Origin: Saccharopolyspora elongata
GTDB lineage: Bacteria > Actinomycetota > Actinomycetes > Mycobacteriales > Pseudonocardiaceae
DNA length: 64,000 nucleotides
Direction: 5' to 3'
Assembly (NCBI RefSeq): GCF_004348985.1
Contig: NZ_SMKW01000011.1
Location: 1-64,000 of the forward strand
Shown: piece by piece, positions 4,182-26,824 of the stretch
Numbering within the stretch: position 1 is the stretch's first letter
How the letters are laid out: every line of letters starts with the position of its first letter
Notes under the pieces: model-generated
The model's database searches: none
What the model was told of the DNA's origin: nothing
Seen by the model: only the letters and a program-made list of their open reading frames with translations
Program-made: the position numbers and the translations under genes

Positions 4182-5564
4182 GTGTGGACGCAGCGGGATC
4201 AGATCCAGGCATACCGGTTCCTCCGCCGACGACTGGTATCCGCGCTCGTCTCCGCCGACGCCAACCATCCGGTCGCGCCCGCCAAGCGGGTCGTCCTCGG
4301 CACGGCGCTCGGCCTGGCGGTCGCGCTGCTGGTGGGTGCCGTGTTCGGCGTCATCGGCCTGCTCGCCCCGACGCGCGCGGAGGCGTGGCGCCAGGGCGGC
4401 CAGGTGATCATCGAGAAGGAGACCGGAACGCGGTTCGTCCTCGGGCAGGACGGCCTGCTGCACCCGGCGCTCAACTACGCCTCGGCGCGGCTGCTCGCGG
4501 GCGGCGACGGCGGCAAAACCGTGACGGTGTCCGCAAAATCGCTGACCGGCGCGCCCCGCGGCGCCGCGGTCGGCATCGCGGGCGCGCCGGATTCGCTGCC
4601 AGGCGGCGATCGCCTGCTGACCGGCGCCTGGACTGCCTGCACCCGCGTCGCACCCGGCCGGCCGAGCGGCGAGGCCCCGATCACCACCGTCCTGTTAGGA
4701 CCGAGCGGCGCGGGCGCGGAACTCCGCGAGGGGCAGGCGCTGCTGGCCCGCCTGCCCTCCGGCGAACGCTTCCTGGTGACCGGCGGGCACCGGTACCGGC
4801 TGGGCGGTGAGCGTGCCGTGGTCGCGCTCGGCTACGCGGCGGCCGAGGAGGTCCCGGTGGCGCCCGCGTGGCTGAACACCCTTCCGGCGGGCCGGGATCT
4901 GGCCACCATCGCGGTGCCGGACGCGGGCAAGCCCGGCATCCGGGTCGGGTCCGAGACCCGACCGGTCGGGCAGGTGCTGGTGTCCGAGGTCGGTGAGTAC
5001 TACCTGGTGCGGCGCGACGGCCTCGCCGTGATCACCGAGACCGAGGCGGACCTGCTGCTCGGCGCGCCGGAGAACACCGCCGCCTACCCCGGCGGGCGCC
5101 CGCACCGGGTGGAGGTCGCCACCGCCGACATCGGCGGCGTGCCGCGATCACCGGAACGCCAGGACGGCTACCCCGACCGGCGCCCGGAGCCCGTCAAGCC
5201 AGGCCGCGCGCCGACGGTGTGCGCCACCGGCGAGCGCGTCACGATCGGCCAGGCGCTTCCCCTGCGGGGCGGGGAAAAAGTCGTCCCCGTCACCGCGCCC
5301 ACCCCGGACACCGCCGCGGAGGTGTACGTGCCGGGCGGGTCCGGCGCGGTCGTCGCCGAGGAACCGGCCCCGGGCGTGCCCGCCGGGGCGGTGTACCTGA
5401 TCACCGACACGGGGATGAAGTACCCGATCCCGGGCGACGAGGCGGTTTCCGCGCTCGGCTACGGAAACCGGCCGACGCACGGCGTGCCCGCGTCGGTGCT
5501 CGCGCTGTTCCCGACCGGCGCCGTGCTCGACCCGGCACTGGCCGGGCAGGTGTTCCCGGGCTGA
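4182..5564 (+). CDS. eccB: EccB, type VII secretion membrane core protein
   Basis: This is EccB of an ESX system (about 460 residues), the core component that spans the membrane once and projects a large periplasmic domain. The N terminus TQRDQIQAYRFLRRRLVSAL is the family signature. One membrane helix follows at about residues 38-60 (VVLGTALGLAVALLVGAVFG), then the repeat-rich external domain with conserved cysteines (TACT, VCATGE). The GTG start at 4182 matches the family N terminus. The stop overlaps the ATG of the sensor kinase (TGATG at 5562-5566), so the kinase is translationally coupled to the secretion core, which is an unusual partnership. eccC and eccD lie 16-22 kb away in the same locus. 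Confidence 0.93.
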   Translation: MWTQRDQIQAYRFLRRRLVSALVSADANHPVAPAKRVVLGTALGLAVALLVGAVFGVIGLLAPTRAEAWRQGGQVIIEKETGTRFVLGQDGLLHPALNYASARLLAGGDGGKTVTVSAKSLTGAPRGAAVGIAGAPDSLPGGDRLLTGAWTACTRVAPGRPSGEAPITTVLLGPSGAGAELREGQALLARLPSGERFLVTGGHRYRLGGERAVVALGYAAAEEVPVAPAWLNTLPAGRDLATIAVPDAGKPGIRVGSETRPVGQVLVSEVGEYYLVRRDGLAVITETEADLLLGAPENTAAYPGGRPHRVEVATADIGGVPRSPERQDGYPDRRPEPVKPGRAPTVCATGERVTIGQALPLRGGEKVVPVTAPTPDTAAEVYVPGGSGAVVAEEPAPGVPAGAVYLITDTGMKYPIPGDEAVSALGYGNRPTHGVPASVLALFPTGAVLDPALAGQVFPG

Positions 5565-7801
5565 TGGGATCGGCGGAACGCGGGCTCGTCCGGCTGGGAC
5601 TCCGCTACGCCGTGTGGCTGCGCTTCGTCGTGATCGCCGTGGCGAGCGGGGCCTCGCTGGTGCTGGAGAACGAGCGGAAACCCGGCTGGGCCATCTTCAT
5701 CGTCCTGGCGCTCAACGCGTGGAACGCGTGGTACGCCGCCCGGATGTCCCGCTCTGCCGCGCGCTGTCCGGTCGCCGTCGACGTGCTGGTGATGTGCGCG
5801 ATCTGCCTCACCCAGGTCTGGACGACGCCCACCGCGCCCAGCCCGGAGGGCACCAGCTGGGTCCGGGTCGCCGCGGCGATCACCGTGGTCGCCTACCCCT
5901 GGCAGCTCGGCGCGGGGGCGCTGGGCGCGGCGACCGCCGTGATCACCGCCGCGCACCTGGCCGGGACGGCGCTCTCGCTGCCCGAGCACTGGCTGACGGC
6001 CGCGCCGATCCACCTGTGGATGTTCATGGAAGCCGGCCTGTCCTGGGGGCTCTACCTGCTGGTCCGGCGCGGCGCCCGGACCGCCGACCAGATCGTCGCC
6101 CGCGGCGAGCGGGTGCGCCGCCGGTCGGCGGTCGCCGAGGCGCGGCGCACCGACGAGCGCGAGCACCTCGCGGCCCTGCACGACACCGCGTCGGCCACGC
6201 TGCTGATGGTCGGCGCCGGGGTGGTGGCCGAACGGCAGATCTGGCTTGCGGAGCAGGCGAAACGGGACCTGGAGGTGCTCCGCGGCCGGTCCGAGGTGTC
6301 CGACGGCGAGGTCGATCTCGTCGGCATGCTGCGGGAAACCATCACCAGGACGCCGCTGCGGGTCCGGCTGACCGCGCCCGACGAGCTGGTGGTGCCCGCG
6401 GTGGAAGCGGCCGCCCTCTGCCACGGCACGCGGGAAGCGCTGACCAACGTCGTCCGGCACGCCGGGGTCGACCGGGCCGACGTGGCCGTCGCCCAGCACG
6501 GCGACAGCGTCGTCGTGGAGGTCGTGGACTCCGGACGCGGATTCGACCCGGGCCGGATCTCCGGCCACCGCTACGGCGTGACCGGCTCGCTCGTGGAGCG
6601 GATGCGCCGGACGGGCGGGAGCGCGCAGGTGATCAGCAGTCCCGGCGACGGAACCCGGGTGCGGATGACGTGCCCGCTCCGGGCCGCGGAGGACGCCGGG
6701 GGCGACGCCGAGATCATCGCCACGAAGTTCCAGCAGGGCATGCAGTGGGCCGTGGTGGTGATGAACCTCGTCATCCTGTGCCTGCTCGACCTGCCGAAGC
6801 TGCTGGCGAACCTGGACGGCTACCGCTTCGCGCCCACCCAGTTCCTCGCCTTCGCCGGGTTCCTCGCGGTGACCCTGGTCGTGCTGGTCAGCCTGCGCAG
6901 GCAGCGGCCGATCGGCCGATGGCGCTGGCCACTGCTGGCGCTGGTGTTCGCGTTGTCCGCGGCCGGGACCGCGTCGGTGCAGCCCGAGCACCTGCTCGGC
7001 TTCGCGCACTGGTCCGAAGGGGACGCCGGCTGGACGGTGGCGCTGCTCCTGCTCGACTGCCGGATCCCGACCTTCACCCTGACCCTCGTCGCCCAGTACG
7101 TGATGACCTTCGTGCAGGTCGGGCTCGCCGGGAACGCCGCGACCTCGTTCTCCGACGCGGTGAACGCGACCGTGCTGATCCTCAGCTACCAGACCGCGAT
7201 GGGTTTGATCGCCGCGGTGCTGCGCGCGCTCGCGGTGTCCTCGGCCCGGGCAGCCAGGGAGGAGGAGCAGCTGCGGACCGCCGAAGAAGTGGCGCGGCAG
7301 CTGCACCAGGACCGCAAGAACCGCTACGCCGACCTGGAAGGCACGACCGTTCCGCTGCTCGACGGCCTCGGCGCGGGCGCCCTCGACCCGGGCGACGTGT
7401 CGGTCCGCCGGCGGTGCTCGGTGGAGGCGGCGAAGATGCGCCGCCTGTTCGCCGAGGACGCCTCCACCCCGGATCCGCTGCTGCACGAGCTCCGGGCCTG
7501 CATAGAACTGGCCGAGCGGCAAGGGGTTTCGGTGCGCTTCGCCGAGTACGGCAAGCGCCCGGCGATCCCCAAGGACGTGCGGCGCAAGCTCACCGAGCCC
7601 GCGGTCACCGCCCTGGCCACCGCCACCGGCACGGTGCGGGTGACGGTGGCCGGCTCCGGCGACGCCGTCACGGTCAGCCTCGTGGCCGCGGCCGTCGAAC
7701 CGGTGCTCGCCGAACCCCGGTCCGACGGCGACGTGGTCACCACGACGGTGGTGGACGGCGGCCGGATCTGGATCGAGGCGAAGTGGAGCCTCCCGACATG
7801 A
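5564..7801 (+). CDS. NarL-type sensor histidine kinase with a second, degenerate membrane/kinase half
   Basis: A membrane histidine kinase of 745 residues, nearly double the usual length. The first half has about five helices, an H-box LAALHDTASATLL (His at about residue 206), an N-box HGTREALTNVVRHAG, G1 VVDSGRGFD and a final ATP-lid glycine segment, so it looks active. A second set of about five helices follows (from VVVMNLVILCLLDLPKLL), then a linker with another His-containing helix, ARQLHQDRKNRYADL (about residue 581). The terminal domain after it lacks N and G boxes. It reads as a duplication or fusion of active and pseudo-kinase halves. The start ATG overlaps the eccB stop. The response regulator at 7869 is the obvious partner. 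Confidence 0.82.
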   Translation: MGSAERGLVRLGLRYAVWLRFVVIAVASGASLVLENERKPGWAIFIVLALNAWNAWYAARMSRSAARCPVAVDVLVMCAICLTQVWTTPTAPSPEGTSWVRVAAAITVVAYPWQLGAGALGAATAVITAAHLAGTALSLPEHWLTAAPIHLWMFMEAGLSWGLYLLVRRGARTADQIVARGERVRRRSAVAEARRTDEREHLAALHDTASATLLMVGAGVVAERQIWLAEQAKRDLEVLRGRSEVSDGEVDLVGMLRETITRTPLRVRLTAPDELVVPAVEAAALCHGTREALTNVVRHAGVDRADVAVAQHGDSVVVEVVDSGRGFDPGRISGHRYGVTGSLVERMRRTGGSAQVISSPGDGTRVRMTCPLRAAEDAGGDAEIIATKFQQGMQWAVVVMNLVILCLLDLPKLLANLDGYRFAPTQFLAFAGFLAVTLVVLVSLRRQRPIGRWRWPLLALVFALSAAGTASVQPEHLLGFAHWSEGDAGWTVALLLLDCRIPTFTLTLVAQYVMTFVQVGLAGNAATSFSDAVNATVLILSYQTAMGLIAAVLRALAVSSARAAREEEQLRTAEEVARQLHQDRKNRYADLEGTTVPLLDGLGAGALDPGDVSVRRRCSVEAAKMRRLFAEDASTPDPLLHELRACIELAERQGVSVRFAEYGKRPAIPKDVRRKLTEPAVTALATATGTVRVTVAGSGDAVTVSLVAAAVEPVLAEPRSDGDVVTTTVVDGGRIWIEAKWSLPT

Positions 7802-7868
7802 CGTCCTCCCCCGCCCGCCGAGGCGGGATTCCCCGGAATGACACGACATCGAGCAGCGGAGGTTGGAG

Positions 7869-8510
7869 TTGATCACGGTCGTGGTGGTAGACGATCATCC
7901 CGCGGTGGTCGCCGGCGTGCGGGCCTGGTGCTCGTTGGCCGACCCGCCGATCAAGGTGCTCGATTCGGGCCCGGCGGTGTCGGTCGCGTGGCTGGATCCC
8001 GGTGCCACCGCCGACGTGGTGATCTTCGACCTGCAGCTGGACATCACCGGCCCCGCCTACGGCGACCTCAAGCGGCTGGTGGACGCCGGCCGCCCGGTGG
8101 TGATCTACAGCATGCGGGCCGACCGGGAAACCGTGTTGACCTGCCTGGACATCGGCGCCTTCACGTACCTGACGAAGGCGGAGGGCGAGGACCACCTGGT
8201 CGCCGCCGTGCAGGCCGCGGCGTCCAACACGCCGTACCTGCCGCCGTCGCTGTCCGGCGCGTTCGGCACCGACGACCGGCCGAACCGGCCCCGGCTGTCG
8301 CCCCGGGAGACCGAGGTGCTGCTGGAGTGGTTCCACTGCGAGTCGAAGGAAATGGTGGCGCGGCGGCTCAACCTGACGGTGCACCGGGTCAACTCCTGCC
8401 TGGAGCGGGTGCGCATCAAATACGCGAACGTCGGACGGGAGGCCCCGACCAAGGCCGCGCTGGTCGCCCGCGCGATCCAGGACGGCCTGGTGCGCGCCGA
8501 CGAACTCTGA
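7869..8510 (+). CDS. NarL/FixJ-family response regulator
   Basis: A 213-residue two-domain regulator. The receiver keeps the acidic pair (VVVDDHP), the phospho-acceptor Asp at about residue 54 (VVIFDLQLD), the Ser switch (IYSMRAD) and the Lys (YLTKAEG). A LuxR-type helix-turn-helix follows, LSPRETEVLLEW then KEMVARRLNLTVHRVNSCLERV. A GGAGG at 7858-7862 sits six bases before the TTG at 7869, which I prefer to the TTG at 7863. It lies 68 bp behind the dual kinase, its probable phospho-donor, and probably controls the ESX genes around it. The target promoters are not visible. Confidence 0.88.
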   Translation: MITVVVVDDHPAVVAGVRAWCSLADPPIKVLDSGPAVSVAWLDPGATADVVIFDLQLDITGPAYGDLKRLVDAGRPVVIYSMRADRETVLTCLDIGAFTYLTKAEGEDHLVAAVQAAASNTPYLPPSLSGAFGTDDRPNRPRLSPRETEVLLEWFHCESKEMVARRLNLTVHRVNSCLERVRIKYANVGREAPTKAALVARAIQDGLVRADEL

Positions 8511-10088: not shown

Positions 10089-10748
10089 GTGGAGACCAAG
10101 CGGATTCGAGTCGGGGTGGTGGAGGACCACCCGCTGTACCGCGCGGCGGTGGCCCGGATGCTCGCCGACGCGCCGGACATCGAAGTGGACGCGGTCGCCG
10201 AATCGGTCGCGCAGTTCGCGGCCCGCAGCCGGTGCGCCGGGAGCATCGTCGTGCTGGACCTCGGGTTGCCCGGGGTGCGGGGCGCGGCGGCCGTCATGGA
10301 ACTCGTGCGCCGCGGCCACCCGGTGCTGGTCGTCTCGGCGATGGCCGACCGCACCGAGGTGGTCGGCGCGATGCTGGCCGGGGCCCGGGGCTTCCTCGGC
10401 AAGGACGCCGAGGGCGAGGAGATCCTGGCCGCGATCCGGGAGATCGCGGCCGGGCGCAGCCACGTCGCCCCGAAGCTGGCGGCGGTCGTGCTGGACACCT
10501 CGCGGGAGCGCAACGCCGGCGCGCGCATCGAGCTCTCGCACCGCGAGGCCGAGGTGCTCAGCAGGCTCGCCGCCGGCGAACGCGACCAGGACATCGCGAT
10601 GGGCCTGCGCATCAGCATCCGCACGGTCCGTTCCTACTTGGACCGGATCAGGGACAAGACGGGACTGCGGCGGCGTCCCGCGCTCACCGCTTACGCGATC
10701 GAGAACGGCTTTGTGACCTGCCCGGCGCCCGACCGGATGCCGGCCTGA
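10089..10748 (+). CDS. NarL/FixJ-family response regulator (second in ESX locus)
   Basis: A 219-residue regulator with an intact receiver (VVEDHP acidic pair, Asp at about residue 57 in VVLDLGLPG, switch Ser in VVSAMAD, Lys in FLGKDAEG) and a LuxR-type helix-turn-helix (LSHREAEVLSRLAAGERDQD then SIRTVRSYLDRIRDK). A clear GGGAGGAAT lies just before the GTG start. It precedes the small sensor kinase at 10875 by 127 bp. Together they form the second NarL-type pair between eccB and the mycosin-like gene, so secretion or its cargo is probably under two-component control. Confidence 0.88.
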   Translation: METKRIRVGVVEDHPLYRAAVARMLADAPDIEVDAVAESVAQFAARSRCAGSIVVLDLGLPGVRGAAAVMELVRRGHPVLVVSAMADRTEVVGAMLAGARGFLGKDAEGEEILAAIREIAAGRSHVAPKLAAVVLDTSRERNAGARIELSHREAEVLSRLAAGERDQDIAMGLRISIRTVRSYLDRIRDKTGLRRRPALTAYAIENGFVTCPAPDRMPA

Positions 10749-10874
10749 GAACTCGTCCGGAACGTGGTGGCGCGGCGACTTCGAAGCGGCGCAGCCGCAC
10801 GGCCCGCCTGCGCAACTCGCACCGCCACGCAAGGTGAGCCTGGAAACAGGCCCTGACGTCGGGAGAAGCGCGTG

Positions 10875-11534
10875 ATGATCCTCGCGTCCACGATCTGCTT
10901 GATGGCGATGCTGACCGTCAGCGTCCGCCTCGCGCACCACGCCGGGTACCGGCGCGGGCGAAGGCGGGAGCGGGCCGTCATGAACCGGTACCTGCACGAC
11001 ACCGTCCTGCCGACGCTGGAGGCGCTGGCGCTGGCCGCCCCGTCGGATGCGGCCGCCGCGCCGGCCAGGCTCGCCGAGCTGCGCCAGGCCGCCAAGGAGC
11101 AGGCCGCGTTGGTGCGGCGGGACATGATGGCCCGCACCGAGGCTGGGCGCGCGCGGCTGGAAACCGATCTGGTGGCGCTGGCGGCGGATCTGGCGCGCCA
11201 CCGGCTGCACACCGAACTGATCCGGGAGGACGTGGACGACACGCTCCCGGCCCATCGGCGCACCGCGATGCGCGACGCCGTCCGGGAAGCGCTGCGGAAC
11301 ACGCAGAAGCACAGCGGAACCGATCGCGCCGTCGTGCGCGTCGAGGAGCGCGACCGCGGAATCGCGGTGGTCGTCCGCGATCACGGGTCCGGCTTCGACA
11401 CGGCGGGCAGGGACGCCGGATTCGGCATCAGGGAGTCGATTTCCGCCAGGATGGCGGAGGTCGGCGGCTCCGCCCGCGTCGAATCACGCCCCGGCTGGGG
11501 AACCCAGGTCACGCTGTGGGTTCCGCAGTCATGA
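10875..11534 (+). CDS. Small single-helix sensor histidine kinase
   Basis: A compact kinase of about 219 residues. One N-terminal membrane helix (MILASTICLMAMLTVSV) leads to a HisKA_3 H-box with His in NRYLHDTVLPTLEAL, then an ATPase domain with N-box RDAVREALRNTQKHS, G1 VVRDHGSGFD and G2 GFGIRES. There is no extracellular sensor domain, so it may sense through its helix or a partner protein. GTG at 10872 is an alternative start, but the ATG at 10875 has better spacing from GGGAGAAG. Its TGA overlaps the ATG of the mycosin-like gene (ATGA at 11531-11534), so the two proteins are made together. Confidence 0.85.
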   Translation: MILASTICLMAMLTVSVRLAHHAGYRRGRRRERAVMNRYLHDTVLPTLEALALAAPSDAAAAPARLAELRQAAKEQAALVRRDMMARTEAGRARLETDLVALAADLARHRLHTELIREDVDDTLPAHRRTAMRDAVREALRNTQKHSGTDRAVVRVEERDRGIAVVVRDHGSGFDTAGRDAGFGIRESISARMAEVGGSARVESRPGWGTQVTLWVPQS

Positions 11535-12697
11535 CGCGGGGGGCATCGCTGGCCGCGGCGGTCTGCGCGGCGCTCGGGGCCGACCTGCTCATCGGCGCGC
11601 CGCCCGCCTCCGCGCAGTGCGCCGCTCCCGCCGGTGTGTACCGGGAGGCGATGGGGTGGGCGCAGCGGCTCACCGACGCATCGGGGACCTGGCCGATCGC
11701 CGACGGAACCGGGCAGCTGCTCGCGGTCGTCGGCACCGGGATCGACGCGGACAACGACCAGTTCGGGCCGGGACAGGTGGTGCCGGGCTCCGATCTCGGG
11801 GACTGCGACGGGCGCGGCACCTTCGCCGCGGGCATCGTCGGGGCGCGGCCCGACCCGGCGACGGCCTTCGCGGGCATGGCGCCGGGCGCCCGCCTGCTCG
11901 GGATCCGGTACACCGAAACCCGCTCCGGCGGCGGCGATCCCGCCCCGGACGCGCTGGCCGGCGCGATCCGGCGGGCCGTGGACGCGGGCGCCACGGTGAT
12001 CCTGGTCGCCGTGCCGGCGCCGCGCACGAGCCCGGCGCTGGAGGACGCGGTGCGGGATGCCCTGGCCGGCAACGCGCTGGTCGTGTCGCCTGCGGTGGGC
12101 AACGAGCCCGGGACGCGGTCCTACCCGACCGGCCTGCCCGGCGTCGTGGCGGTCGGCGCGCTCGACCCGTCCGGCGCGGCGGTGCAGGACGAATCGGGTC
12201 CGCACCTCTCGATCGCCGCCCCGGGCGCGGACCTGTCCGGCCTCTCGGCCGGGGCCCGCGGCGGGCTCGGGCACCGCTGGGGCGTGGACGGTCCGGCGTT
12301 CTCGGCGGCGTACGTCGCGGGCGCGGCGGTGCTGGTGCGCTCCTACCGGCCGGGACTGAGCCCCGAGCAGGTCTCCGAGCGGCTCGCCCGGACCGCCAGC
12401 CACCCGCCGAACGGGCACGACCCCCGGCTGGGGTGGGGCGTGCTGAACGTCGGGGCCGCCGTGGCCGCGGAGCTGCCCGAGGATCCTTCCGCGCTTCAGC
12501 TCCCGAACGCCCCGGCGCCGCCGGTGGCGACCGTGCGTCCGGCCGCGGGCCCGGCGCCGCTGCCCGACCACGAGCCGCTACCGGGTTGGCTCGCGCTGCT
12601 GGGCGTCGCCGCCGCCGCTCTCGCCGTCGTCGCGCGCGCGACCATCCGGCTCGGCAAGGCCCGCGGCTGGCGCCCGGGCTCCCGACGCTCCCCCTGA
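11531..12697 (+). CDS. Mycosin-like S8 protease homologue lacking the catalytic triad
   Basis: A 388-residue secreted, membrane-anchored subtilisin-fold protein matching ESX mycosins (MycP): a signal peptide ending PPASA, the subtilase core, a proline-rich linker and one C-terminal helix (GWLALLGVAAAALAVVARA) with a basic cytosolic tail. Every catalytic residue is replaced. The Asp motif V-I-D-T-G is AVVGTGID (Gly at about residue 68). The His motif D-G-H-G-T is CDGRGTFAAG (Arg at about 95). The Ser motif G-T-S is DGPAFSAAY (Ala at about 256). The oxyanion Asn is kept (AVGNEPG, about 191). The Gly and Arg changes are each one A-to-G step from GAC and CAC. Mycosins also have a structural role in ESX complexes, and this copy could do only that. 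Confidence 0.85.
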   Translation: MTRGASLAAAVCAALGADLLIGAPPASAQCAAPAGVYREAMGWAQRLTDASGTWPIADGTGQLLAVVGTGIDADNDQFGPGQVVPGSDLGDCDGRGTFAAGIVGARPDPATAFAGMAPGARLLGIRYTETRSGGGDPAPDALAGAIRRAVDAGATVILVAVPAPRTSPALEDAVRDALAGNALVVSPAVGNEPGTRSYPTGLPGVVAVGALDPSGAAVQDESGPHLSIAAPGADLSGLSAGARGGLGHRWGVDGPAFSAAYVAGAAVLVRSYRPGLSPEQVSERLARTASHPPNGHDPRLGWGVLNVGAAVAAELPEDPSALQLPNAPAPPVATVRPAAGPAPLPDHEPLPGWLALLGVAAAALAVVARATIRLGKARGWRPGSRRSP

Positions 12698-13852: not shown

Positions 13853-15103
13853 TCACAGCGCGGACTGCCTTTCCCTGATGGCGCCGTGGACGACGTCGTT
13901 CATGTCCCGCCAGGACGGCGAGCCCGGGTCCAGGACGCTGCTGTGCGAGGACACGTCCGGGACGAACCAGCCGTCCGAGTCGTGGCTGGACGGCAGCGGC
14001 GTGACGCCGGGGAAGTCGTCCGGGTCGGGCCCGTGGGCGCGGCCCTGCGCCCACTGGATCGGGTCGTGCTCCAGCGTGACCGAGTACCGGGCCGTCGGGT
14101 ACGGGTTGGTCAGCTCCGTCACGCCCTCGCCCATCCCCGCCGAGGCCACGTGGATCACGTTGTCCGCGCGCATGCCCGCCGCGTCGGCCAAGCCGACGAT
14201 CGCCCCGCCGTAGCTGTGCCCGATCACGGTGACCTGGGCGCCCTCCCCCAGCCTCGGGCGCAGGTCGTTGTTGACGAACTCCGCCAGCCGCGGCGCCATC
14301 TCCCGCGACGGGCCCGCGGAGCTCGCCTCGGGCAGGCCCTGCGGGAAGTCGCCGTTCATCCACAGCACCGATGCCGTCCGGCCGGTCGGGTCGGCGCCGG
14401 CGAAGCTGCCCACCCGGTCCGCGTAGCGCGGGAAGTCCTCCAGCCCGGTGTTCATACCGGGCACCAGGACGGCCACCGACTGGGTGTCGGAGTCGAGCCG
14501 GCCGATCAGGCCCACGATCCGCCCGTCCCCCGCCGGGTCGAACTCGATGATCTGCGTGTTGCTGTTGAGGATCTCGTCGTACGCCGCGATCTTCTCGCGG
14601 AGGTGCCGGATCTCCGCCTCGCGGTCCCCCGGGCCCGGCCTGGCCTCCAACTCCTTCAGTTCCGCGCCGGCCACCGTCCGCGCGGCCTCGATCTGGGCCC
14701 GGTTGGCGGCGTTCAGGTCGGCGACCGAGCCACCGGAGGGACCGTCGGCCAGCTCCGGGACGACCAGGTCCGGGTTCAGCCGCCGGATCTTGGCGGCCTG
14801 CTCGGCGTCCCAGCGGCGCACCGCGACGTTCGACGCCGTGATCCCGTCGATGATCCCGGTCAGCCTGCTGGACGCGGCTTGCAGGCCGCGCTCGTTCAGC
14901 TGGATGTTGCCGGAATGGCCGGCCTGGGCCGCCTGCGAGCCCGACACGTTCGCGAACGCGGACGTCACCAGCGTGCGCGCGGTGAGGTTGCGGCGGGCTT
15001 CACCGAGCACCGCCACCTGGTCGGGCAACGCCTGCGCAGCGGTGTCGAGCGCGGCGTGGTTCACCGCGAACCGCGCCACCGAGGTCTGCTCGGAACGGTC
15101 CAT
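13853..15103 (-). CDS. DUF1023 alpha/beta-hydrolase, likely ESX-linked effector
   Basis: A 416-residue protein with two parts. The first about 180 residues are helical and coiled-coil-like (LNERGLQAASSRLTGII, RHLREKIAAYDEIL), the kind of N-terminal region ESX substrates use for docking. The second half is the DUF1023 hydrolase domain: a core strand SVAVLVPGMNTGL, the nucleophile elbow VTVIGHSYGGAIVG, an Asp-containing turn after GMGEGV, and a late His (SSHSSVL). Members are found beside WXG100 genes across actinobacteria and are thought to be secreted esterases or lipases. No signal peptide is visible. It is the last gene of a leftward run of ESX substrates. A second DUF1023 protein is encoded at 46139. 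Confidence 0.82.
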   Translation of the reverse strand: MDRSEQTSVARFAVNHAALDTAAQALPDQVAVLGEARRNLTARTLVTSAFANVSGSQAAQAGHSGNIQLNERGLQAASSRLTGIIDGITASNVAVRRWDAEQAAKIRRLNPDLVVPELADGPSGGSVADLNAANRAQIEAARTVAGAELKELEARPGPGDREAEIRHLREKIAAYDEILNSNTQIIEFDPAGDGRIVGLIGRLDSDTQSVAVLVPGMNTGLEDFPRYADRVGSFAGADPTGRTASVLWMNGDFPQGLPEASSAGPSREMAPRLAEFVNNDLRPRLGEGAQVTVIGHSYGGAIVGLADAAGMRADNVIHVASAGMGEGVTELTNPYPTARYSVTLEHDPIQWAQGRAHGPDPDDFPGVTPLPSSHDSDGWFVPDVSSHSSVLDPGSPSWRDMNDVVHGAIRERQSAL

Positions 15104-15138: not shown

Positions 15139-15906
15139 TCAGGTCCTGAGGGTCGGCGGGGTGATGTCGTCGAGCAGGGCGTGCTGCGCCTGCTGGGCGC
15201 GGGTGGCGCGCTCGTCGTGCTGCCGGATCAGCCGCGCCGCCCAATCGAGGTCGTCGCGGAACTTCTGGTCGCGGTCCAGGGCCTTGCTGGTGGCCTCGGA
15301 GCTGCTGGTGATGTTCGACCGGTGCGCGCCCGCCGCCGCGGCCGATGCCTGCACCCGGCCGAAGGCGTCCTGCGACGCGGCGCCGTGCCGCAGCGCCTGC
15401 GAGGTGTTCAGCAGCGGATTCCTGGTCCCCTCGACGAGTTTCGCCACCGCGTCGAAGAACTTCGGGACCTCGGCGCGGAAACCTTCCGGGTTGCTGGCGG
15501 ACGAGCCGGTGCTCGCCGAGTTCTGCGCGCCGCGCTGCCGGACCGCATCCCGCGCCCGGCCGAGGAACTCCCGGTACTGGCCGCCGGTGTAGGTCGACCA
15601 CTGGTCCCACCCGTGCGCCTGGAAGATCGCGTGGGCGTTGCGCGCGTTCGTCGCCGGGTCGGCGTTCGCCGCCTCGTTGCGGTGCCGCTGGTCGAATGCG
15701 TTGCCGTGACCGGGATTCACCGACCGGATCTGCCACAGCCCGACCGACGGGCCGTACACCTCGTTCTGCAGGGACACATCGCCGATCGCCCCGGGGTTCC
15801 CGCGCGACTCCGCGAGCGCGACGGCGACCGCGATCCGCAGGTCCTCGCCGGTGAAGCCGGCGTTCGCGGCGTGCTCCGCGATCTGCTGGTCGGTGAGCGT
15901 TGGCAT
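15139..15906 (-). CDS. SLT-type lysozyme domain fused to helical ESX-like domain
   Basis: A 255-residue protein without a signal peptide. Residues of about 10-125 form a lytic-transglycosylase/lysozyme-like domain, with a catalytic-type Glu in AVALAESRGNPGAIG, then YGPSVGLWQIRSVNPG and a W/Y-rich region ending YTGGQYREFLGRA. The last about 110 residues are alpha-helical and charged (FDAVAKLVEG, RDQKFRDDLDWAARLIRQHDERA), resembling a WXG100-type hairpin. A muralytic domain joined to such a helical part, inside an ESX substrate block, suggests a secreted cell-wall enzyme exported by type VII rather than Sec. It may remodel the producer's own wall or attack neighbours. The export route is inference from context. 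Confidence 0.8.
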   Translation of the reverse strand: MPTLTDQQIAEHAANAGFTGEDLRIAVAVALAESRGNPGAIGDVSLQNEVYGPSVGLWQIRSVNPGHGNAFDQRHRNEAANADPATNARNAHAIFQAHGWDQWSTYTGGQYREFLGRARDAVRQRGAQNSASTGSSASNPEGFRAEVPKFFDAVAKLVEGTRNPLLNTSQALRHGAASQDAFGRVQASAAAAGAHRSNITSSSEATSKALDRDQKFRDDLDWAARLIRQHDERATRAQQAQHALLDDITPPTLRT

Positions 15907-16048: not shown

Positions 16049-17281
16049 TCAGAACGAGCGCTGGTCCGGTGGTTCGGCGCCGAGGACGGAGGGGGTGATG
16101 ACCGAGGACTCGCCCCAGACCTCCTCGGTTTCCACCAGCCACGGCGGGATGCGGCGCGCCCCGGACATGTCCTGTCCTCCCGGCGCGAACGGCATCATCG
16201 GCATCATCGGCATGCCGCCGGCGCCGCTGCCCGCCGCGTTGACCGCTCCCGCCGCGGCGCCCAGCACCCCCGCGGCTCCCATCGCGTTCGGCGCCGCAGC
16301 GACGCCGCTCAGCCCGGCCGCCGCCGTCGGGGCGGGCACGGCCGCTCCGCCGCCGAGCGACGCCCCTCCGCCGAGTCCGGGCATCGCGCCGCGCGGCATG
16401 CCGATCGGCTTGGCTTCGTCCTTCTCCTCGTTCGCGGGGTCTTTCGGCTTCCCCCACTCCGGCACCTTCGGCGGCCGGAAGCCGCCGAGCCGTCCCATGC
16501 CCGCGGCCGACGCCGCGGCCAGCCCAGCGGTGAACATGTTGCCGAACAGCGGCGTGCGCGGTTCCGCGCCGGGCTCGGGCTGCTGCCCGGGCTCGGGTTC
16601 CCCTGCCCCGCCGCCGGATCCGTCGTGGCCACCGGTGCCGCCGTCCGCCCCGCCGCCTTCCCCTTCGCCGGGCACCGGCGCGCCCGGCACCTCGGTCTGG
16701 TCCGCCAGCGGCATCCCCTGGTCCGCCGCGCGGTACTGGCCGCCGAGCTCGGTCATCACGGCGATCGCCTTGGCGTGCGCGGCATCCGCGGCCGCCGTCG
16801 CCTGCTGGTGCTCCTGCACCGCCTTCGCCGCATCGGCCTGCCGCTGCCGCAGCTGGGCCACGGCCGCCGGCGAGGCCGACTGGTCGACCTCCAGCGGAGT
16901 GGTGGCCAGCTGCGCGGTCTCCGCGGGCAGCGCCGCGACCTCGACCGCGGGCGGCATCTCGGTGCGGGCCTTCGCCAGCGCGTCGGCCGAGTCGTGCACC
17001 CGGTCGCGGATGGCGAACGCCGCGTCGCCGATCCGGCGGAGCCCGCCGGAAAGGTCGTTGATCATCACCCGGTACTGCTCGGAAGCGCCGCCCCGCCACT
17101 GGTCCTGGAACTTCGCGAGCTTGGCCTCCAGGTTGCCGGCCTGCTCGTGCAGCGCGGCGCCGACACTGTCCCAGGAGTCCGCGGCCGGACGCACCGATGA
17201 GTCGTCGCCTCGTTGCAGCATCGCGAAGAGCTGCGCATGGCTGTAGGCCGAGAAGTTCGTCGGTTCCCGCATCCCGCTCAC
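16049..17281 (-). CDS. PPE-like / WXG-domain ESX substrate, long Gly-Pro-rich C-terminus
   Basis: A 410-residue protein. The N-terminal about 180 residues are helical with a W-R-G turn (FQDQWRGGASEQYRVMI), as in PPE and WXG100 helical hairpins. A low-complexity Gly/Pro/Met-rich middle follows (GAGGMPMMPMMPFAPG). The C terminus ends in PWLVETEEVWGESSVITPSVLG, a tail I recognise from many actinobacterial PPE-like ESX substrates. The GTG at 17281 overlaps the upstream stop (GTGA), so it is coupled to the EspC-like gene; an in-frame ATG lies at 17272. Its likely role is a secreted or surface ESX substrate working with the small partner upstream. Confidence 0.78.
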   Translation of the reverse strand: MSGMREPTNFSAYSHAQLFAMLQRGDDSSVRPAADSWDSVGAALHEQAGNLEAKLAKFQDQWRGGASEQYRVMINDLSGGLRRIGDAAFAIRDRVHDSADALAKARTEMPPAVEVAALPAETAQLATTPLEVDQSASPAAVAQLRQRQADAAKAVQEHQQATAAADAAHAKAIAVMTELGGQYRAADQGMPLADQTEVPGAPVPGEGEGGGADGGTGGHDGSGGGAGEPEPGQQPEPGAEPRTPLFGNMFTAGLAAASAAGMGRLGGFRPPKVPEWGKPKDPANEEKDEAKPIGMPRGAMPGLGGGASLGGGAAVPAPTAAAGLSGVAAAPNAMGAAGVLGAAAGAVNAAGSGAGGMPMMPMMPFAPGGQDMSGARRIPPWLVETEEVWGESSVITPSVLGAEPPDQRSF

Positions 17282-18727: not shown

Positions 18728-19084
18728 TCAGCCGTTGAGGCCGGCGATGATGCCGCCCGAGTGCACGGCCGCGGTCGTCTGGTTGATCTGCGCGCTCTGC
18801 TGCTCGGAGAAGCCCGCGTGCTGGTTCATGACCTCGTTGAACTTCGTCGCGATGACCGTCAACGCGTTCTGCGCCCGCTGGATCTTGTCGTTGAGCAGCA
18901 TCTTGTTCTGGTCGAAGGCCAGCCGGGCCGCGCCGTTGAAGTTCTGCGTCGCGCCGACCAGACCCTCCACCTCCGCGTTGAGCTTGGCCATCATCTCGCG
19001 GATCCGCGTAGCCGTGTCGTCGAAGTCGCCGGCCGCCTTGGTCATGATCGCCCGATCGACGACGACACCCTGGGGTGTGCTCAT
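18728..19084 (-). CDS. WXG100-family ESX protein (EsxA-like)
   Basis: A 118-residue WXG100-type protein. The two helices (VVVDRAIMTKAAGDFDDTAT, then AQNALTVIATKFNEVMNQHA) flank a turn reading TQNFNGAARLAFDQ, where Phe-Asn-Gly stands in for Trp-x-Gly. It is the likely heterodimer partner of the 18059 gene and a substrate of the EccB/C/D system here. It starts only about 40 bp after the stop of the TnpB-like gene. A 340-bp gap separates it from the next esx gene, mostly taken by the TnpB-end remnant and an AT-rich stretch near 18640-18715 that could hold a promoter. Confidence 0.82.
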   Translation of the reverse strand: MSTPQGVVVDRAIMTKAAGDFDDTATRIREMMAKLNAEVEGLVGATQNFNGAARLAFDQNKMLLNDKIQRAQNALTVIATKFNEVMNQHAGFSEQQSAQINQTTAAVHSGGIIAGLNG

Positions 19085-20383: not shown

Positions 20384-23300
20384 TTAGCGACGTTCGGCGC
20401 GGTCGCCCACGGCAGAACTCACGTCGTCGCCGACGGCACTTTTGCCCGCATCGAACGGAGTCCAGGCCACCTGGACCAGTTCGTGCCCGGCGCGGCGGCG
20501 CACCAGGACCCCGCGCCCGGGCGGTTGCTTGCGCGGCCGGACGTCGCCGAGCAGGGCGCCTTCGTCCCGGCTGCCCGACATCACCAGGCCCGGCGAGCCG
20601 AGCTCCCTGATGCGCTGGATCACCGGGTCGAACATGGCGCGCGCCGCGCCGCCGCTGCCGCGCGCGAGCACCAGGTGCAGGCCGATGTCACGGGCGTGCG
20701 GCAGGAGGTCCAGCAGCGGCAGCAGCGGGTGCGAGACCTTGCCCGGCGAGGCGACGAGCTCGTAGTCGTCGATGAGCAGGAACAGTTCGCGGCCCTGCCA
20801 CCAGTCGCGGCGGCGGAGCTGTTCGGGCGTGATGTCCGGTCCCGGCAGGCGTTCTCGCATGGCCTGGGAGACCTGGGCGACGACGTCGTCGAGGACCGGC
20901 TCGGAACCGGCGTAGCTGAGCAGGTGCTCCTCGGCGACCGCGCCGAGGAGGCCGCGCCGGTAGTCCACCGCGATGATCCGCGCCTCGGCCGGCGTGTAGC
21001 GGTCGGCGATTCCGTGCGCGATGGTGCGCAGCAGCGCGGTTTTCCCGCTCTCCACGTCGGCGAACGCGATGAAGTGCGGTTCCTTGCCGAAGTCGAGGAA
21101 CACCGGCCGGAGGTCGGATTCCGCCACGCCCAGCGGGATCGCGCGGCCGGGCGGCGCGCCGAGCCGGTCGACGGTGATCTCGCGTGGCAGCAGTCGCACG
21201 CGCGGTGCGGGTGGGCCCGGCCAGGCCCGGGAGACTCGGGCGACGAGATCGGCGGTGCCCGTGCCGAGTGTCTCGGCGCGCTGGTCACCGTCCACTCTGG
21301 GCAGTGCACCCAGCATGTGGAGGCGTTCCGGGGTGATGCCCCGGCCGGGCGCTCCGGCGGGCACGTTCTGCGCGGCGCGGCGATCGATCATCGAGTCGCT
21401 CGGGTCGCCGAGCCGCAGTTCGACGCGGGTGCCCATGCTGTCGCGCAATGGCGTCGGCATGCTCAGCCACCAGGTGGTGGAGATGATCACGTGGATGCCG
21501 AAGCCGAGCCCGCGGGTGGCGAGCTTGACCAGCGAGTCTTCCAGGGAGGAGAACTCCTGGCGCACCGTCGCCCAGTCGTCGACGACGACGAAGACGTCGC
21601 CGAATTCGCGTTGTCCGCCGGTGCTTTCGGTGAATTCAGCGCGGCGCTGCCGGAAGGTCTGGATGGAATCGATGCCGTTCTCGGCGAAGAACGCCTCCCG
21701 CTGCTCCAGCAGGGTCGTGGCCTCCGCGACGATGCGCCGGCAGCGCTCCTCGTCCCGCCGCAGGGCGTGGCCGCTGACGTGCGGCAGCCCGGCGATCGAG
21801 CCGAGCGCGCCGCCGCCCATGTCCAGCAGGAAGAACTGCACCTCCTCCGGGGTGTGGGTGAGGGCGAGCGAGGCGATGACGCCGCGCAGGAAGGTGCTCT
21901 TGCCGCTCTGCGGCGCGCCGATGAGCAGGAGGTTGCCCGCCGCGCCGGAGAAGTCCACCCACAGCTGGTCGCGGCGCTGTTCGAAGGGTTTGTCCACTGT
22001 GGCCACCGGGACGGCCAGGTTCGCGTTCCAGCCCCGGGGGCGCAGGCCGCGCTCCGGGTCGAGCTCCAGCGGCGGCAGGAGCTGGTCGAGGGTCGGCGGC
22101 TCGTCCAGCGGCGGGAGCCAGATCGGGTGCGCGGCCGGGCCCTTGCCGATGAGCCTGGACACCATCGCGCCCATGATCGTCTCGCCGGTGCTCTCCCCCT
22201 GCTCCGGCGCCGCGGGTGGCTCGGGCACCGGTTCCGGATCCACGATCTTGTTCAGCCCGAACGGGATCACCCGTCGTCCCGGAGCCAGCGCCGGGGCCGA
22301 ACCTGCCGCCCGGGGCGCGAGTTCCCCGGAGACGTAGGCCGCCTTGAGCCGCCGCAGCGTGTCGGTGTCGCTCTTCAGGTAGGCCGAGCCCGGCACGGCG
22401 GGCAGGTGGTAGGCGTCGGGCACGCCGAGCACGGTCCGGCTCTCCGACGCTGAGAACGTGCGCAGCCCGATCCGGTAGGACAGGTGCGCGTCCAGCCCGC
22501 GCAGACGGCCCTCCTCCAGCCGCTGCGACGCCAGCAGCAGGTGCACCGACAGGCTCCGGCCGAGCCTGCCGATCATCACGAACAGGTCGATGAACTCCGG
22601 CCTGCTGGACAGCAGTTCGCTGAACTCGTCGATGATCACCAGCAGCGCGGGCAGCGGCGCGAGGTCGGCGCCGGATTCGCGGGCCTGCTCGTAATCCCGC
22701 ACCGACGCGTAATTGCCCGCGGCGCGCAGCAACTCCTGGCGGCGCACCAGTTCCCCGTTGATCGCGTCGGCCATCCGGTCGACGAGGGCCAGGTCGTCGG
22801 AGAGGTTGGTGATCACCGCGCAGGTGTGCGGCAGTTCGCTCATCCCGGCGAACGTCGCCCCGCCCTTGAAGTCGATCAGCGCCAGGTTCACCGCCTCCGA
22901 CGAGTGCGTCACGGCGAGCCCGGTGACCAGGGTGCGCAGCAGCTCGCTCTTGCCGGAGCCGGTCGCGCCGATCACCAGCCCGTGCGGGCCCATCCCGCCC
23001 TCGGCGGACTCCTTGATGTCCAGTTCCACCGGCAGCCCGTCGGGATCGAGCCCGAGCGGGACGCGCAGCCGCTCGCGGGTGGTGCGGGTGCGCCAGGTGA
23101 CCGCCGGGTCGGTGTCGCGCGGATCGCCGATGCCGAGCAGGTCGGCGAGCCCGAAGGTGGTGGACATCGGCGTCTCGGCGCCGGCGGTGCCCGGTGAGTG
23201 CCACGGGGCCATCGACCTGGCCAGCGTCTCGGCGGCGGTGGCGCTCAACCGGTCCGGCTCGCCGATGTAGCGGAAGCCGACCTCGTCGTCGCGGCCGACC

Positions 23301-24376
23301 AGCATGCCCACGAAACCGTCGGAGACGTGCAGGAACAGGGCGTTCGCCCGCGATTCGGCGGGCGGCAGCTCGGACAGCTCGATCACGGTGACGCCCTGCC
23401 GCTCGGCATCTGGCGGCACCCGGCCGCCGTCGGCGATCACCACGACGTGCGGCCGGTCGGCGTCGCCCTGCCTGCCGAACGCCGCGCGCTCGCCGAAGTC
23501 GTCGCCGAGCAGCTCCGCGAGCGCGCCCATGTCACCGGCCGCCAGCCGGGCCGGTCCCGCCGCGTCGGGATCGCTGTCGTCTTGGGCGTGCGGCAGCCAC
23601 TTCACCCAGTCCCAGTCGGCCCACCGCCGCGGCCCCAGGCACAGGCCGATCCGCAGGTCGTTCGGGGACTGGAAGGTGACGGCCTGGGCGAGCACCGCGC
23701 GCACCAGCTCGATGACCTCGTCGCGCTGCCCGCTGACGCCGATCCGGGCGTAGCCGCGCAGCGCGATGGCCACCGGCAGGTCGGCCACCGTCGAGTAGGT
23801 GCGGATGAAATGCCGCAGCGCGGTGGAGGAAACCGGGTCGAGGTCCTCCAGCGGCGCGGTCTGCGGGGCGCGCAGCGGGGTGGCCAGCTGCTGGGGCCCG
23901 CGGCCGATGCGCACCTGCCCGAAGTGCGGGTCGCGCCTGCGCCGCTCCCAGCGCCGCGTGGTCGGCACGAGGGTCCACAGGTCCTCCGGTTCGGGCTGGG
24001 CGAACAGCAGCGCGGCGCGCTGCGCCTCGGCGGTTTCGCGCACCTGCTTGCGCAGCCCGGCGAGGTAGCGCTGGTAGTCGCGGCGCTCCTCGTTGATCTT
24101 CGCCTTGGTGGACTGCCGCCCGCCGGCCAGCGACATCGTGATCATGCCGATCATCACGACCAGGAACAGGCCGCCGAAGAGGTAGGTCATCGGGCCGCCG
24201 GATCGTCCGATGTAGACGAACGACATGGCGCCCATGCCCAGCATCATCGGCACCATGAACAGCAGCTGCATCCAGGACTGGCCGCCCTTGACCAGGCTGG
24301 GCGGCGCCTGCAGCACGATCTCGCCGGTGTGCTGCTCCGGCGCGCGCCCCGGGCGCAGCGCTGGTTGGGTCCGCAT
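20384..24376 (-). CDS. eccC: EccC, FtsK/SpoIIIE-type ESX motor ATPase
   Basis: A 1330-residue fused EccC, equal to EccCa plus EccCb in one chain. Two membrane helices lie at about residues 35-85 (MQLLFMVPMMLGMGAMSFVYI, TYLFGGLFLVVMIGMITMSL). Three P-loop domains follow: GATGSGKSELL at about residue 470, GAPQSGKSTFL at about 815 and FADVESGKTALL at about 1100. The first ATPase should drive transport, and the later ones bind WXG100 C-terminal signals. The ATG at 24376 gives the family start MRTQPALRPGRAPEQ. The open frame extends upstream but is not gene-like. It is divergent from the 24509 gene, with a 132-bp shared promoter gap. Confidence 0.95.
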   Translation of the reverse strand: MRTQPALRPGRAPEQHTGEIVLQAPPSLVKGGQSWMQLLFMVPMMLGMGAMSFVYIGRSGGPMTYLFGGLFLVVMIGMITMSLAGGRQSTKAKINEERRDYQRYLAGLRKQVRETAEAQRAALLFAQPEPEDLWTLVPTTRRWERRRRDPHFGQVRIGRGPQQLATPLRAPQTAPLEDLDPVSSTALRHFIRTYSTVADLPVAIALRGYARIGVSGQRDEVIELVRAVLAQAVTFQSPNDLRIGLCLGPRRWADWDWVKWLPHAQDDSDPDAAGPARLAAGDMGALAELLGDDFGERAAFGRQGDADRPHVVVIADGGRVPPDAERQGVTVIELSELPPAESRANALFLHVSDGFVGMLVGRDDEVGFRYIGEPDRLSATAAETLARSMAPWHSPGTAGAETPMSTTFGLADLLGIGDPRDTDPAVTWRTRTTRERLRVPLGLDPDGLPVELDIKESAEGGMGPHGLVIGATGSGKSELLRTLVTGLAVTHSSEAVNLALIDFKGGATFAGMSELPHTCAVITNLSDDLALVDRMADAINGELVRRQELLRAAGNYASVRDYEQARESGADLAPLPALLVIIDEFSELLSSRPEFIDLFVMIGRLGRSLSVHLLLASQRLEEGRLRGLDAHLSYRIGLRTFSASESRTVLGVPDAYHLPAVPGSAYLKSDTDTLRRLKAAYVSGELAPRAAGSAPALAPGRRVIPFGLNKIVDPEPVPEPPAAPEQGESTGETIMGAMVSRLIGKGPAAHPIWLPPLDEPPTLDQLLPPLELDPERGLRPRGWNANLAVPVATVDKPFEQRRDQLWVDFSGAAGNLLLIGAPQSGKSTFLRGVIASLALTHTPEEVQFFLLDMGGGALGSIAGLPHVSGHALRRDEERCRRIVAEATTLLEQREAFFAENGIDSIQTFRQRRAEFTESTGGQREFGDVFVVVDDWATVRQEFSSLEDSLVKLATRGLGFGIHVIISTTWWLSMPTPLRDSMGTRVELRLGDPSDSMIDRRAAQNVPAGAPGRGITPERLHMLGALPRVDGDQRAETLGTGTADLVARVSRAWPGPPAPRVRLLPREITVDRLGAPPGRAIPLGVAESDLRPVFLDFGKEPHFIAFADVESGKTALLRTIAHGIADRYTPAEARIIAVDYRRGLLGAVAEEHLLSYAGSEPVLDDVVAQVSQAMRERLPGPDITPEQLRRRDWWQGRELFLLIDDYELVASPGKVSHPLLPLLDLLPHARDIGLHLVLARGSGGAARAMFDPVIQRIRELGSPGLVMSGSRDEGALLGDVRPRKQPPGRGVLVRRRAGHELVQVAWTPFDAGKSAVGDDVSSAVGDRAERR

Positions 24377-25118: not shown

Positions 25119-25460
25119 ATGAACGCGCTGCACGCCCACCAGGGCCAGGACGACCCGCCGGAGCTCGCCGAGCTGATGCGCCGGTTGCAGGACCAGCAGG
25201 CGGAGATCGACCGGGCCCGGCAGGACGTCGACGCCACCCTCGTCTCCGGCTGCTCCCGGGACAACGAGGTGACCGTCACCGTGCGGGGAACCGGCCGGTT
25301 CACCGAGGTCTCGATCGACCCCGAGGCGCTGCGCCGGTACGACGCCCGCGATATCGGTGCGATCGTGGTGGAAGCCGCCAACGACGCGCTGGACCGGCTG
25401 GCGCAGCACGCGGCGCAGCGGCTCGCGCCGGCGCTCGACGCCGCCGACGAGTGGCCGTGA
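25119..25460 (+). CDS. YbaB/EbfC-family protein (EspL-like position)
   Basis: A 113-residue protein of the YbaB/EbfC nucleoid-associated fold: an N-terminal coiled coil (LAELMRRLQDQQAEIDRARQ), then strands VTVTVRGTGRFTEVSIDPEAL, then a helix with ALDRLAQHAAQRLAPAL. EbfC-like proteins bind DNA as dimers. In mycobacterial ESX-1 the homologue EspL stabilises EspE/EspF-type substrates, and this gene sits in a comparable place just before eccD. Its TGA overlaps the eccD start at 25458-25460, so they are coupled. A chaperone or regulatory role for the ESX system is inferred. Confidence 0.82.
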   Translation: MNALHAHQGQDDPPELAELMRRLQDQQAEIDRARQDVDATLVSGCSRDNEVTVTVRGTGRFTEVSIDPEALRRYDARDIGAIVVEAANDALDRLAQHAAQRLAPALDAADEWP

Positions 25461-26824
25461 TGTCCACTCCGCGCCGGGTGACCGTGGTGGCCCCGGGCTC
25501 CAGGATCGATGTCGCGCTGCCGTTGGAGTGCACGGTGGCGGAGCTGATCCCGCAGCTCGTCCGGCTCACCGGGGTGCCGAGCCGCCCGGAGCAGCACCCC
25601 GGCTGGGTGCTCGCCCGCATCGGCGGCTCGGCGCTGGCGCCCGGCCTCACGGTGTCGGCGACCCTGGTGCAGGACGGCGAGATCCTCTGCCTGAATCCCC
25701 GCCCGAGGCAGGAAATCCCGCTGGTCTTCGATGACACCGTCGACGCGATCGCCGGTGCCGCGCAGACCCGTTCCGGGCCGTGGCGGCCGAGGGCCGGGCG
25801 GATCCTGAGCCTCTTCGCCGCCGTGGCGTTGTTCGTCGGTGCCACCGTTTTCGCGGCCGCGGCGCTGGCCGGCGGCCCGGCGGCGCCGATCGGGTGCGCG
25901 GTGATCGCCGTGGCGCTGGCGGTCGCGGGCGGCGCCCTGTCCCGGGCCCGGGGCGACCTGGATTCCGGCAGCGCGACCGCGGGTGCCGGCGTGGTCGCGG
26001 CGCTGCTGGCGGGGATCACGGCCCTGCCGCCGCACCTGCCCTGGCCGTTCGAGGTGGGATCGTTCGCCGCGGGCCTGGGCGCGGTGGCGCTGTACGCGAC
26101 GGCGGCGGCGATGCTGGTCCACCGGTTCACCGTGTTCGCGCCGATCGTCGCGGCCTCGGCGCTAGGCGCGCTGATTACCGCGAGCGTGCCGCTGTTCGAC
26201 CTGCCGGGCACCTCGGTCGCGGCGGTCTCGGTGGCGTTGACGGCCGCGCTCACCGCCGCCGCACCGATGATCGCGCTGCGCCTGGCCAAGCTGCCGATGC
26301 CCAGGGTGCCCGCGGACATGGACTCGTTCCGCGCCGACGAACAACCCACGCTCGACTCGTCCGTGCTCGGCCCTACGACGACCGCGACCGACGTCCTCAC
26401 CGGCCTGGTCACGGCGCTCGGCCTGGTGACGGCCGGAGGCTGCCTCGTGCTGCTCGGCGACCCGTCGCCGTGGGCGGCGGTGCTGGTGGCGCTCGCGGCC
26501 ACCGCATGGCTGCTGCGCTCGCGCTCCTACGCGGGCACCGCTCAGCGAGTCGCGGTGATCGTCATCGGCCTGTTCCTGCTGATCGGCCTGAGCGCGCGCC
26601 TGCTGTCCACACTGGACTACTACTGGACGCTCGCGGTCGCCGCGTTCGCCGTCGTGGCGGGAGCGGGCTGCCTGCACTACGCCGCGCGGAACCCGGCGAG
26701 CCTGCCGTCCCCGCTCCGCGCCCGCTGGCTGGACATCCTCGAATACCTGGTGCTGATCGCGCTGATCCCCACGGCGGCAGCGGTCCTGGACCTCTACAAC
26801 ACGATCCGCGACGCGGTCGGCTGA
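25460..26824 (+). CDS. eccD: EccD, ESX membrane channel subunit with ubiquitin-like domain
   Basis: A 454-residue EccD. Residues of about 1-85 are the cytosolic ubiquitin-like (YukD) domain (RRVTVVAPGSRIDVALPLE through QDGEILCLNPRP). Eleven predicted helices follow, starting ILSLFAAVALFVGATVFAAA and ending ILEYLVLIALIPTAAAVLDL. EccD forms the membrane barrel of the ESX core with EccB and EccC. The ATG at 25460 overlaps the upstream stop; GTG codons at 25451 and 25457 are alternatives. No eccE follows: the operon ends at a 24-bp perfect hairpin, and the next genes face the other way. Confidence 0.92.
   Translation: MSTPRRVTVVAPGSRIDVALPLECTVAELIPQLVRLTGVPSRPEQHPGWVLARIGGSALAPGLTVSATLVQDGEILCLNPRPRQEIPLVFDDTVDAIAGAAQTRSGPWRPRAGRILSLFAAVALFVGATVFAAAALAGGPAAPIGCAVIAVALAVAGGALSRARGDLDSGSATAGAGVVAALLAGITALPPHLPWPFEVGSFAAGLGAVALYATAAAMLVHRFTVFAPIVAASALGALITASVPLFDLPGTSVAAVSVALTAALTAAAPMIALRLAKLPMPRVPADMDSFRADEQPTLDSSVLGPTTTATDVLTGLVTALGLVTAGGCLVLLGDPSPWAAVLVALAATAWLLRSRSYAGTAQRVAVIVIGLFLLIGLSARLLSTLDYYWTLAVAAFAVVAGAGCLHYAARNPASLPSPLRARWLDILEYLVLIALIPTAAAVLDLYNTIRDAVG

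Follow-up and report, generated by a model that had tools for sequence, protein, structure and literature searches.

The protein encoded in one reading frame of a 64,000-nt stretch of the Saccharopolyspora elongata genome (assembly GCF_004348985.1, contig NZ_SMKW01000011.1, positions 1 to 64,000; here called the window) is, as judged from sequence comparison, not one odd protein but a member of a conserved mycosin family with an old, shared loss of the Asp-His-Ser catalytic triad. The protein, here termed a pseudo-mycosin, is predicted to be catalytically inactive and probably has a structural role, not a proteolytic one. It is likely to serve as a membrane-anchored, subtilase-fold subunit, the extracytoplasmic cap and stabiliser of a dedicated ESX (type VII) complex of EccB, EccC and EccD. 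An earlier note on this DNA had taken the gene to encode an inactive protease retained by an ESX locus, a description which the shared triad losses, the clade, the dN/dS values and the locus support at the level of sequence. The family is carried by soil bacteria akin to Saccharopolyspora. The features of the window are listed in Table 1.

Table 1. Features of the window: the pseudo-mycosin gene, its active-site positions and neighbouring genes
Feature	Position	Strand	Basis
EccB	4182..5564	+	PF05108 8.5e-97; EccB5 match 8.4e-21
Large membrane histidine-kinase-like protein	5564..7801	+	PF02518 1.3e-10; 7 hydropathy peaks
Response regulator	7863..8510	+	PF00072 7.4e-12
LuxR-type response regulator	10089..10748	+	PF00072, PF00196
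Histidine kinase directly upstream of pseudo-mycosin	10872..11534	+	PF02518 9.9e-11
Pseudo-mycosin (GR type), 388 aa	11531..12697	+	ATG 11531, stop 12697
Signal peptide hydrophobic segment, residues 5-23	11543..11599	+	Hydropathy peak
Gly68 (GGC), catalytic Asp position	11732..11734	+	Alignment; Gly 117, Ala 3 among 120 rows
Arg95 (CGC), catalytic His position	11813..11815	+	Alignment; Arg 120/120 rows
Gly190-Asn191, Gly in the oxyanion Asn column, Asn one residue on	12098..12103	+	Alignment
Ala256 (GCG), catalytic Ser position	12296..12298	+	Alignment; varies among relatives
C-terminal membrane helix, residues 354-372	12590..12646	+	Hydropathy peak
Alpha/beta hydrolase	13853..15103	-	PF06259 1.2e-12
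Lysozyme-like (SLT_3) protein	15139..15906	-	PF18896 3.4e-27
PPE/WXG100-like protein, start not fixed	16049..17275	-	PF25547 7.3e-10; PF00823 5.6e-7
WXG100 protein	18728..19084	-	PF06013 3.8e-8
EccC, FtsK/SpoIIIE ATPase, start approximate	20384..24300	-	PF01580 2.9e-80
EccD	25451..26824	+	PF19053 6.7e-67; YukD 4.7e-18

The reading frame is open and starts and stops exactly where it had been placed before. Its start codon and the stop codon of the preceding kinase gene (10872-11534) overlap as ATGA. The ORF matches Pfam PF00082 (Peptidase_S8) at 8e-21 and the NCBIfam model TIGR03921 (T7SS_mycosin) with 208.2 bits (E 2e-61), below the equivalog cut-off of that model, 278.75 bits. The Asp-His-Ser triad expected of a mycosin is absent, Gly-Arg-Ala being found instead. 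Signal peptide, subtilase domain and C-terminal membrane helix are all present (Pfam, hydropathy); the retention of signal peptide and anchor, also claimed before, is borne out by the two hydropathy peaks. EccB, EccC and EccD are encoded in the same locus.

The replacement of all three triad residues, first read from the sequence alone, was upheld in alignments to solved MycP1 chains, which are the best solved relatives of the protein, and to its paralogues. The oxyanion Asn was also said to be kept, but its column contains Gly here and Asn in 62/62 intact mycosins. The Asn of the motif VGN stands one residue beyond that column, where Asn is found in 3 of 120 rows, the row of the window among them; five Saccharopolyspora orthologues have Asp or Glu at this position. 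The statement that two of the changes are single-base steps is right for Gly (GGC) and Arg (CGC), separated by a single base from a codon for Asp and for His, respectively, but Ala (GCG) is equally close to a Ser codon. The order of the triad changes is unreadable from such codons.

A protein search with the pseudo-mycosin yielded 169 homologues at E 1e-20 or better, of which 120 were listed. The His position is occupied by Arg in all 120 listed homologues. Among the 119 with a residue in the Asp column, 116 have Gly there and 3 have Ala. The Ser position varies among the 120 (Gly 47, Ala 32, Ser 18, Thr 8, Leu 5, Ile 4, Val 3, Glu 2, Gln 1). When 358 well-filled columns were ranked by conservation over 120 rows (119 listed homologues and the protein of the window), the Arg column was among 36 invariant columns, the Asp column ranked 59 and the Ser column 312. 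These unequal ranks indicate a site that is not decaying evenly: the residues replacing His and Asp have reached fixation or come close to it, and the nucleophile position varies without restraint. A new constraint on the pocket, either structural or ligand-binding, is suggested by the invariant Arg.

Proteins with Gly or Ala at the Asp position, Arg at the His position and any residue at the Ser position are here called GR type. A scan of named genomes, from which 80 of 98 loci were kept, contained 54 GR-type loci; its search patterns include Arg and Gly motifs, so that it is unfit for judging the frequency of triads. The GR loci were found in Saccharopolyspora, Actinophytocola, Goodfellowiella, Streptoalloteichus, Amycolatopsis, Kutzneria, Labedaea, Crossiella, Solihabitans, Micromonospora, Actinocatenispora and a Micromonosporaceae bin, and a homologue from Plantactinospora (Micromonosporaceae) is among the proteins of the 120-member list. 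The family ranges over Pseudonocardiaceae and Micromonosporaceae. The 18 sampled GR rows form one clade, with support of 100/99, in a 60-row tree built without the triad columns. As in a subtilase pseudoprotease, an S8 fold is combined with a triad that is replaced across a lineage and not in one strain.

Conserved columns were compared between 12 GR rows and an intact set of 62 rows, all of which have Asp, His and Ser in the alignment. At 11 of the 43 columns that are at least 95% conserved in the intact set, under half of the GR rows keep the residue; three of the 11 are the triad columns, which differ by the way the sets were chosen. Among the 40 non-triad columns, eight are changed (Val71, Asn158, Ser160, the oxyanion Asn, Gly254, Thr255, Ala258 and Pro307) and 32 are retained in the GR rows. 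Five of the eight belong to what we take to be the substrate-binding, oxyanion and Gly-Thr-Ser motifs, an assignment made post hoc. The probability that five of five motif columns change by chance is 9e-5, given this motif assignment, which was made after the table had been seen. Positions fixed specifically in GR rows are expected in any clade and are not counted as proof.

The pseudo-mycosin gene is present in 6 of 22 Saccharopolyspora genomes, this one included, at 76-100% identity. All five Saccharopolyspora orthologues (76-94% identity) share Gly, Arg and Ala at the triad positions; with six genomes in agreement, a sequencing error or an accident in one strain is ruled out. The gene is under purifying selection. 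Its dN/dS is 0.20 against S. indica, 0.21 against S. kobensis, 0.21 against S. hirsuta and 0.18 against one further distant genome of the genus; EccB gives similar values of 0.23-0.24 against the three named species. The comparison with the near relative S. shandongensis, based on few changes, gives 0.34 for the pseudo-mycosin and 0.14 for EccB. Synonymous differences between species occur at the codons of the Asp and His positions (GGC/GGG and CGC/CGG, respectively).

The surroundings of ORF 11531-12697 were confirmed as an ESX locus with EccB, EccC, EccD and a WXG100 protein. EccE (PF11203) gave no match up to E 1 on this contig among the 150 of 234 candidates scored; the available text of PMC11217815 describes EccE as absent from some ESX-4 variants. 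The large kinase-like product encoded directly after EccB (5564-7801) is a membrane protein of 745 aa with a kinase-type ATPase domain, and its relatives also follow EccB in GR loci of Saccharopolyspora, Goodfellowiella, Streptoalloteichus and Labedaea. A TnpB-like gene with a Cas12f1-like TNB domain (19125-20384) is located between the WXG100 gene and EccC. These two genes stand about 2 kb apart in S. shandongensis (L050), as against about 0.3 kb in three other loci (L051-L053); the difference points to an insertion in an ancestor shared by the two near relatives.

Proteins of the window served as the only queries in a search of the neighbourhoods of the 54 GR loci, which reached out to 10 kb or to the contig ends; 11 of the loci are shorter than 20 kb. 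A PPE/WXG100-like gene was detected in 49 loci, the hydrolase in 39, EccC in 26, EccB in 10 and EccD in 1. With these queries and distances, no EccC was detected in 28 of the 54 loci. Many Amycolatopsis GR loci showed accessory genes only in this search, and EccC, where seen, is at the edge of the stretch.

A profile search of this genome identified seven mycosins (7 matches at 1e-57), five of which lack triad residues. Apart from the pseudo-mycosin (G/R/A), these are D/Q/A on contig C202, D/H/A on C216, G/L/E on C18 and D/R/E on C258. Two other mycosins are intact, the earlier note having proposed a search of the genome for an active one: one on C109, in its own locus with EccB, EccC and EccD, and one on C71, in its own locus with EccD and a short EccC match. 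Around the mycosin on C216 (L222, G000:C216:190000-207000), which has Asp and His but Ala at the Ser position, nothing in the 17 kb covered matched an Ecc protein. The genome, assembled in 277 contigs, contains ten EccB and ten EccD genes to seven mycosins, and several of its ESX loci may be without a mycosin on the same contig.

A search of 40 Pseudonocardiaceae genomes from 39 genera with the mycosin profile returned 80 matches with E-values no higher than 1e-57. Among 72 of these matches, 53 have an intact Asp-His-Ser triad, 14 lack triad residues, four have His and Ser with the Asp outside the frame read, and one (L196) looks frameshifted; the remaining eight comprise five without the full triad and three intact ones. 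Triad residues are missing in 19 of the 80 matches, from 12 of the 40 genomes. Two such proteins score above the TIGR03921 cut-off (L016, 304.5 bits; L179, 310.8 bits). Among 40 matches from other families of the class, 38 are intact and two are not; these were hand-picked from the high-scoring matches listed, with the family coded f2 omitted, and the contrast with the family sample is approximate.

The triad appears to have been lost more than once. In the 60-row tree the other triad-less rows fall into three further clades beside intact ones, one of these placements with support of 84/89 only. Parsimony with free gain and loss gives three changes, and none of 200 bootstrap trees allows a single change; rooting among the intact canonical rows and allowing no regain of a triad once lost, the count is four losses. 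A quick tree of 95 rows gives four changes and includes a further triad-less pair from Streptomyces. The GR loss is apparently one of several among mycosins. A separate set of subtilases from 20 Streptomyces loci (L107-L113, L115-L118, L121-L129) has Gly at the Asp position, Gln at the His position, Gly or Ala at the Ser position and Asp in the oxyanion Asn column; no match to EccB, EccC or EccD was found within the stretches examined. A contig titled Candidatus Melainabacteria (L079, CAJCJE010000771.1) carries, next to kinase genes, a pseudo-mycosin of actinomycete type whose His position is taken by Gln; the contig is perhaps misbinned.

A decaying pseudogene or a sequencing error is scarcely credible: the Ser position does drift freely, but the frame is open, six genomes have the same triad, the Arg is invariant and dN/dS is about 0.2 against distant relatives. 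That the protein is still a hydrolase with relocated catalytic residues is very unlikely and was rejected. His248, which speaks for it, is present in 104 of 120 rows, but no His is invariant among these rows, the Ser two residues past the old nucleophile is not conserved, and the oxyanion Asn and other motif residues are gone.

Two further explanations were considered. In the one, the remodelled pocket would bind a ligand or peptide and signal to the adjacent kinase and response regulator, in the manner of the subtilase pseudoproteases of spore germination. The ATGA overlap with the histidine kinase, the invariant Arg and the precedent of CspC (PMC6636752, in its available text) speak for such a sensor, as do 7 of the 10 representative loci, where the ORF directly upstream of the GR gene is that of a kinase or response regulator. 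Of four Amycolatopsis loci tested, however, only L104 has a kinase gene upstream, the other three having one for quinolinate phosphoribosyltransferase; relatives of the window's small kinase were found in just 18 of the 54 GR loci, and the number of hydropathy peaks of the upstream kinase differs between species. A signalling role is therefore possible but not general, kinase coupling as a general rule is out, and as an account of the family the sensor is improbable. The pseudo-mycosin might otherwise assemble with, or be served by, an active mycosin encoded elsewhere, so that the complex still cuts. Intact mycosins are present in each of the 12 pseudo-mycosin genomes of the family sample and, here, on C71 and C109, but the latter two sit in their own loci and a second mycosin was detected in none of the 54 GR loci (window proteins as queries, 10 kb or contig ends); this arrangement is considered unlikely. 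A structural cap or stabiliser remains the preferred explanation, slightly weakened by the detection of the Ecc core genes in only part of the GR loci and of a kinase upstream in one Amycolatopsis.

The retention of fold, anchor, locus and selection after the predicted loss of catalysis fits the structural role described for mycobacterial mycosins. In Mycobacterium marinum, according to the available text of PMC5082899, protease-dead MycP1 and MycP5 restore secretion, and the active-site mutant of MycP1 restores the membrane complex. In the ESX-5 structure, as given in the accessible part of PMC8131196, three MycP5 cap the EccB5 chamber with their active sites facing inward, and the complex is loose when MycP5 is absent. 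By analogy with MycP1 and MycP5, the pseudo-mycosin would hold EccB units together and cap the chamber without cutting; proteolysis would have been lost for good, with fold, anchor, ESX locus and selection kept. The invariant Arg95 may fill the former active site and hold its shape or an interface. A further-reaching version is offered tentatively and is rather doubtful: the GR family would be neofunctionalised, its catalytic centre rebuilt around the invariant Arg for binding or gating on the side of the secretion chamber, actinobacterial mycosins would have become non-cutting about four times or more, and some ESX systems would operate without a protease of their own.

Trp437 and Trp469 of EccB5 (counted along the chain), which pack against MycP5, are absent from the EccB of the window. 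Both are also absent from the EccB beside the intact mycosin on C109, so that this check does not separate intact from dead cases; the EccB on C227 alone keeps the second. A C-terminal query retrieved MycP1 chains only, and Trp523 of MycP5 could not be mapped.

No natural triad-less mycosin is reported in the open-access literature searched (titles and starts of abstracts), a body of text that most subscription papers fall outside, or in the available parts of PMC3482391, PMC6411800, PMC9549277, PMC11217815 and PMC5156307. For the five MycP proteins of Mycobacterium tuberculosis, the Asp-His-Ser triad was identified by analysis (PMC5156307, in part). The view that mycosins are essential and their proteolysis dispensable has been argued from engineered mycobacterial mutants (PMC5082899 and PMC5156307, both in part). 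In actinomycetes outside the mycobacteria, the separation of the two seems to have been made naturally in a whole clade, apparently several times, and would allow the structural role to be tested without mutating an active enzyme. With 19 of 80 family matches lacking triad residues, two of them above the mycosin cut-off, gene names such as 'S8 family serine peptidase' or 'mycosin' need not mean a protease here.

Like the pseudo-mycosin, MycP1 and MycP5 of the mycobacterial ESX-1 and ESX-5 systems have a subtilase fold, a signal peptide, a C-terminal anchor and a position in an ESX locus. Two Cys residues, one in the N-terminal extension and one preceding the His position, are aligned between MycP1 and the pseudo-mycosin. 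MycP1 keeps Asp-His-Ser in the alignments; in the GR family Gly/Ala-Arg-any stands in its place, and the oxyanion Asn is gone. The laboratory variants MycP1 S354A and MycP5 S461A are mycosins without proteolysis that still support secretion (PMC5082899, available text); these are engineered single changes, whereas the GR family represents a natural and old loss of all three residues. Pseudoproteases with a subtilase fold are already known: CspC and CspA of Clostridioides difficile combine an S8 fold and a degenerate triad with a critical non-catalytic role (PMC6636752, available text). They differ from the pseudo-mycosin in belonging to another family, in having a prodomain and a jelly-roll domain, and in acting in spore germination, not secretion.
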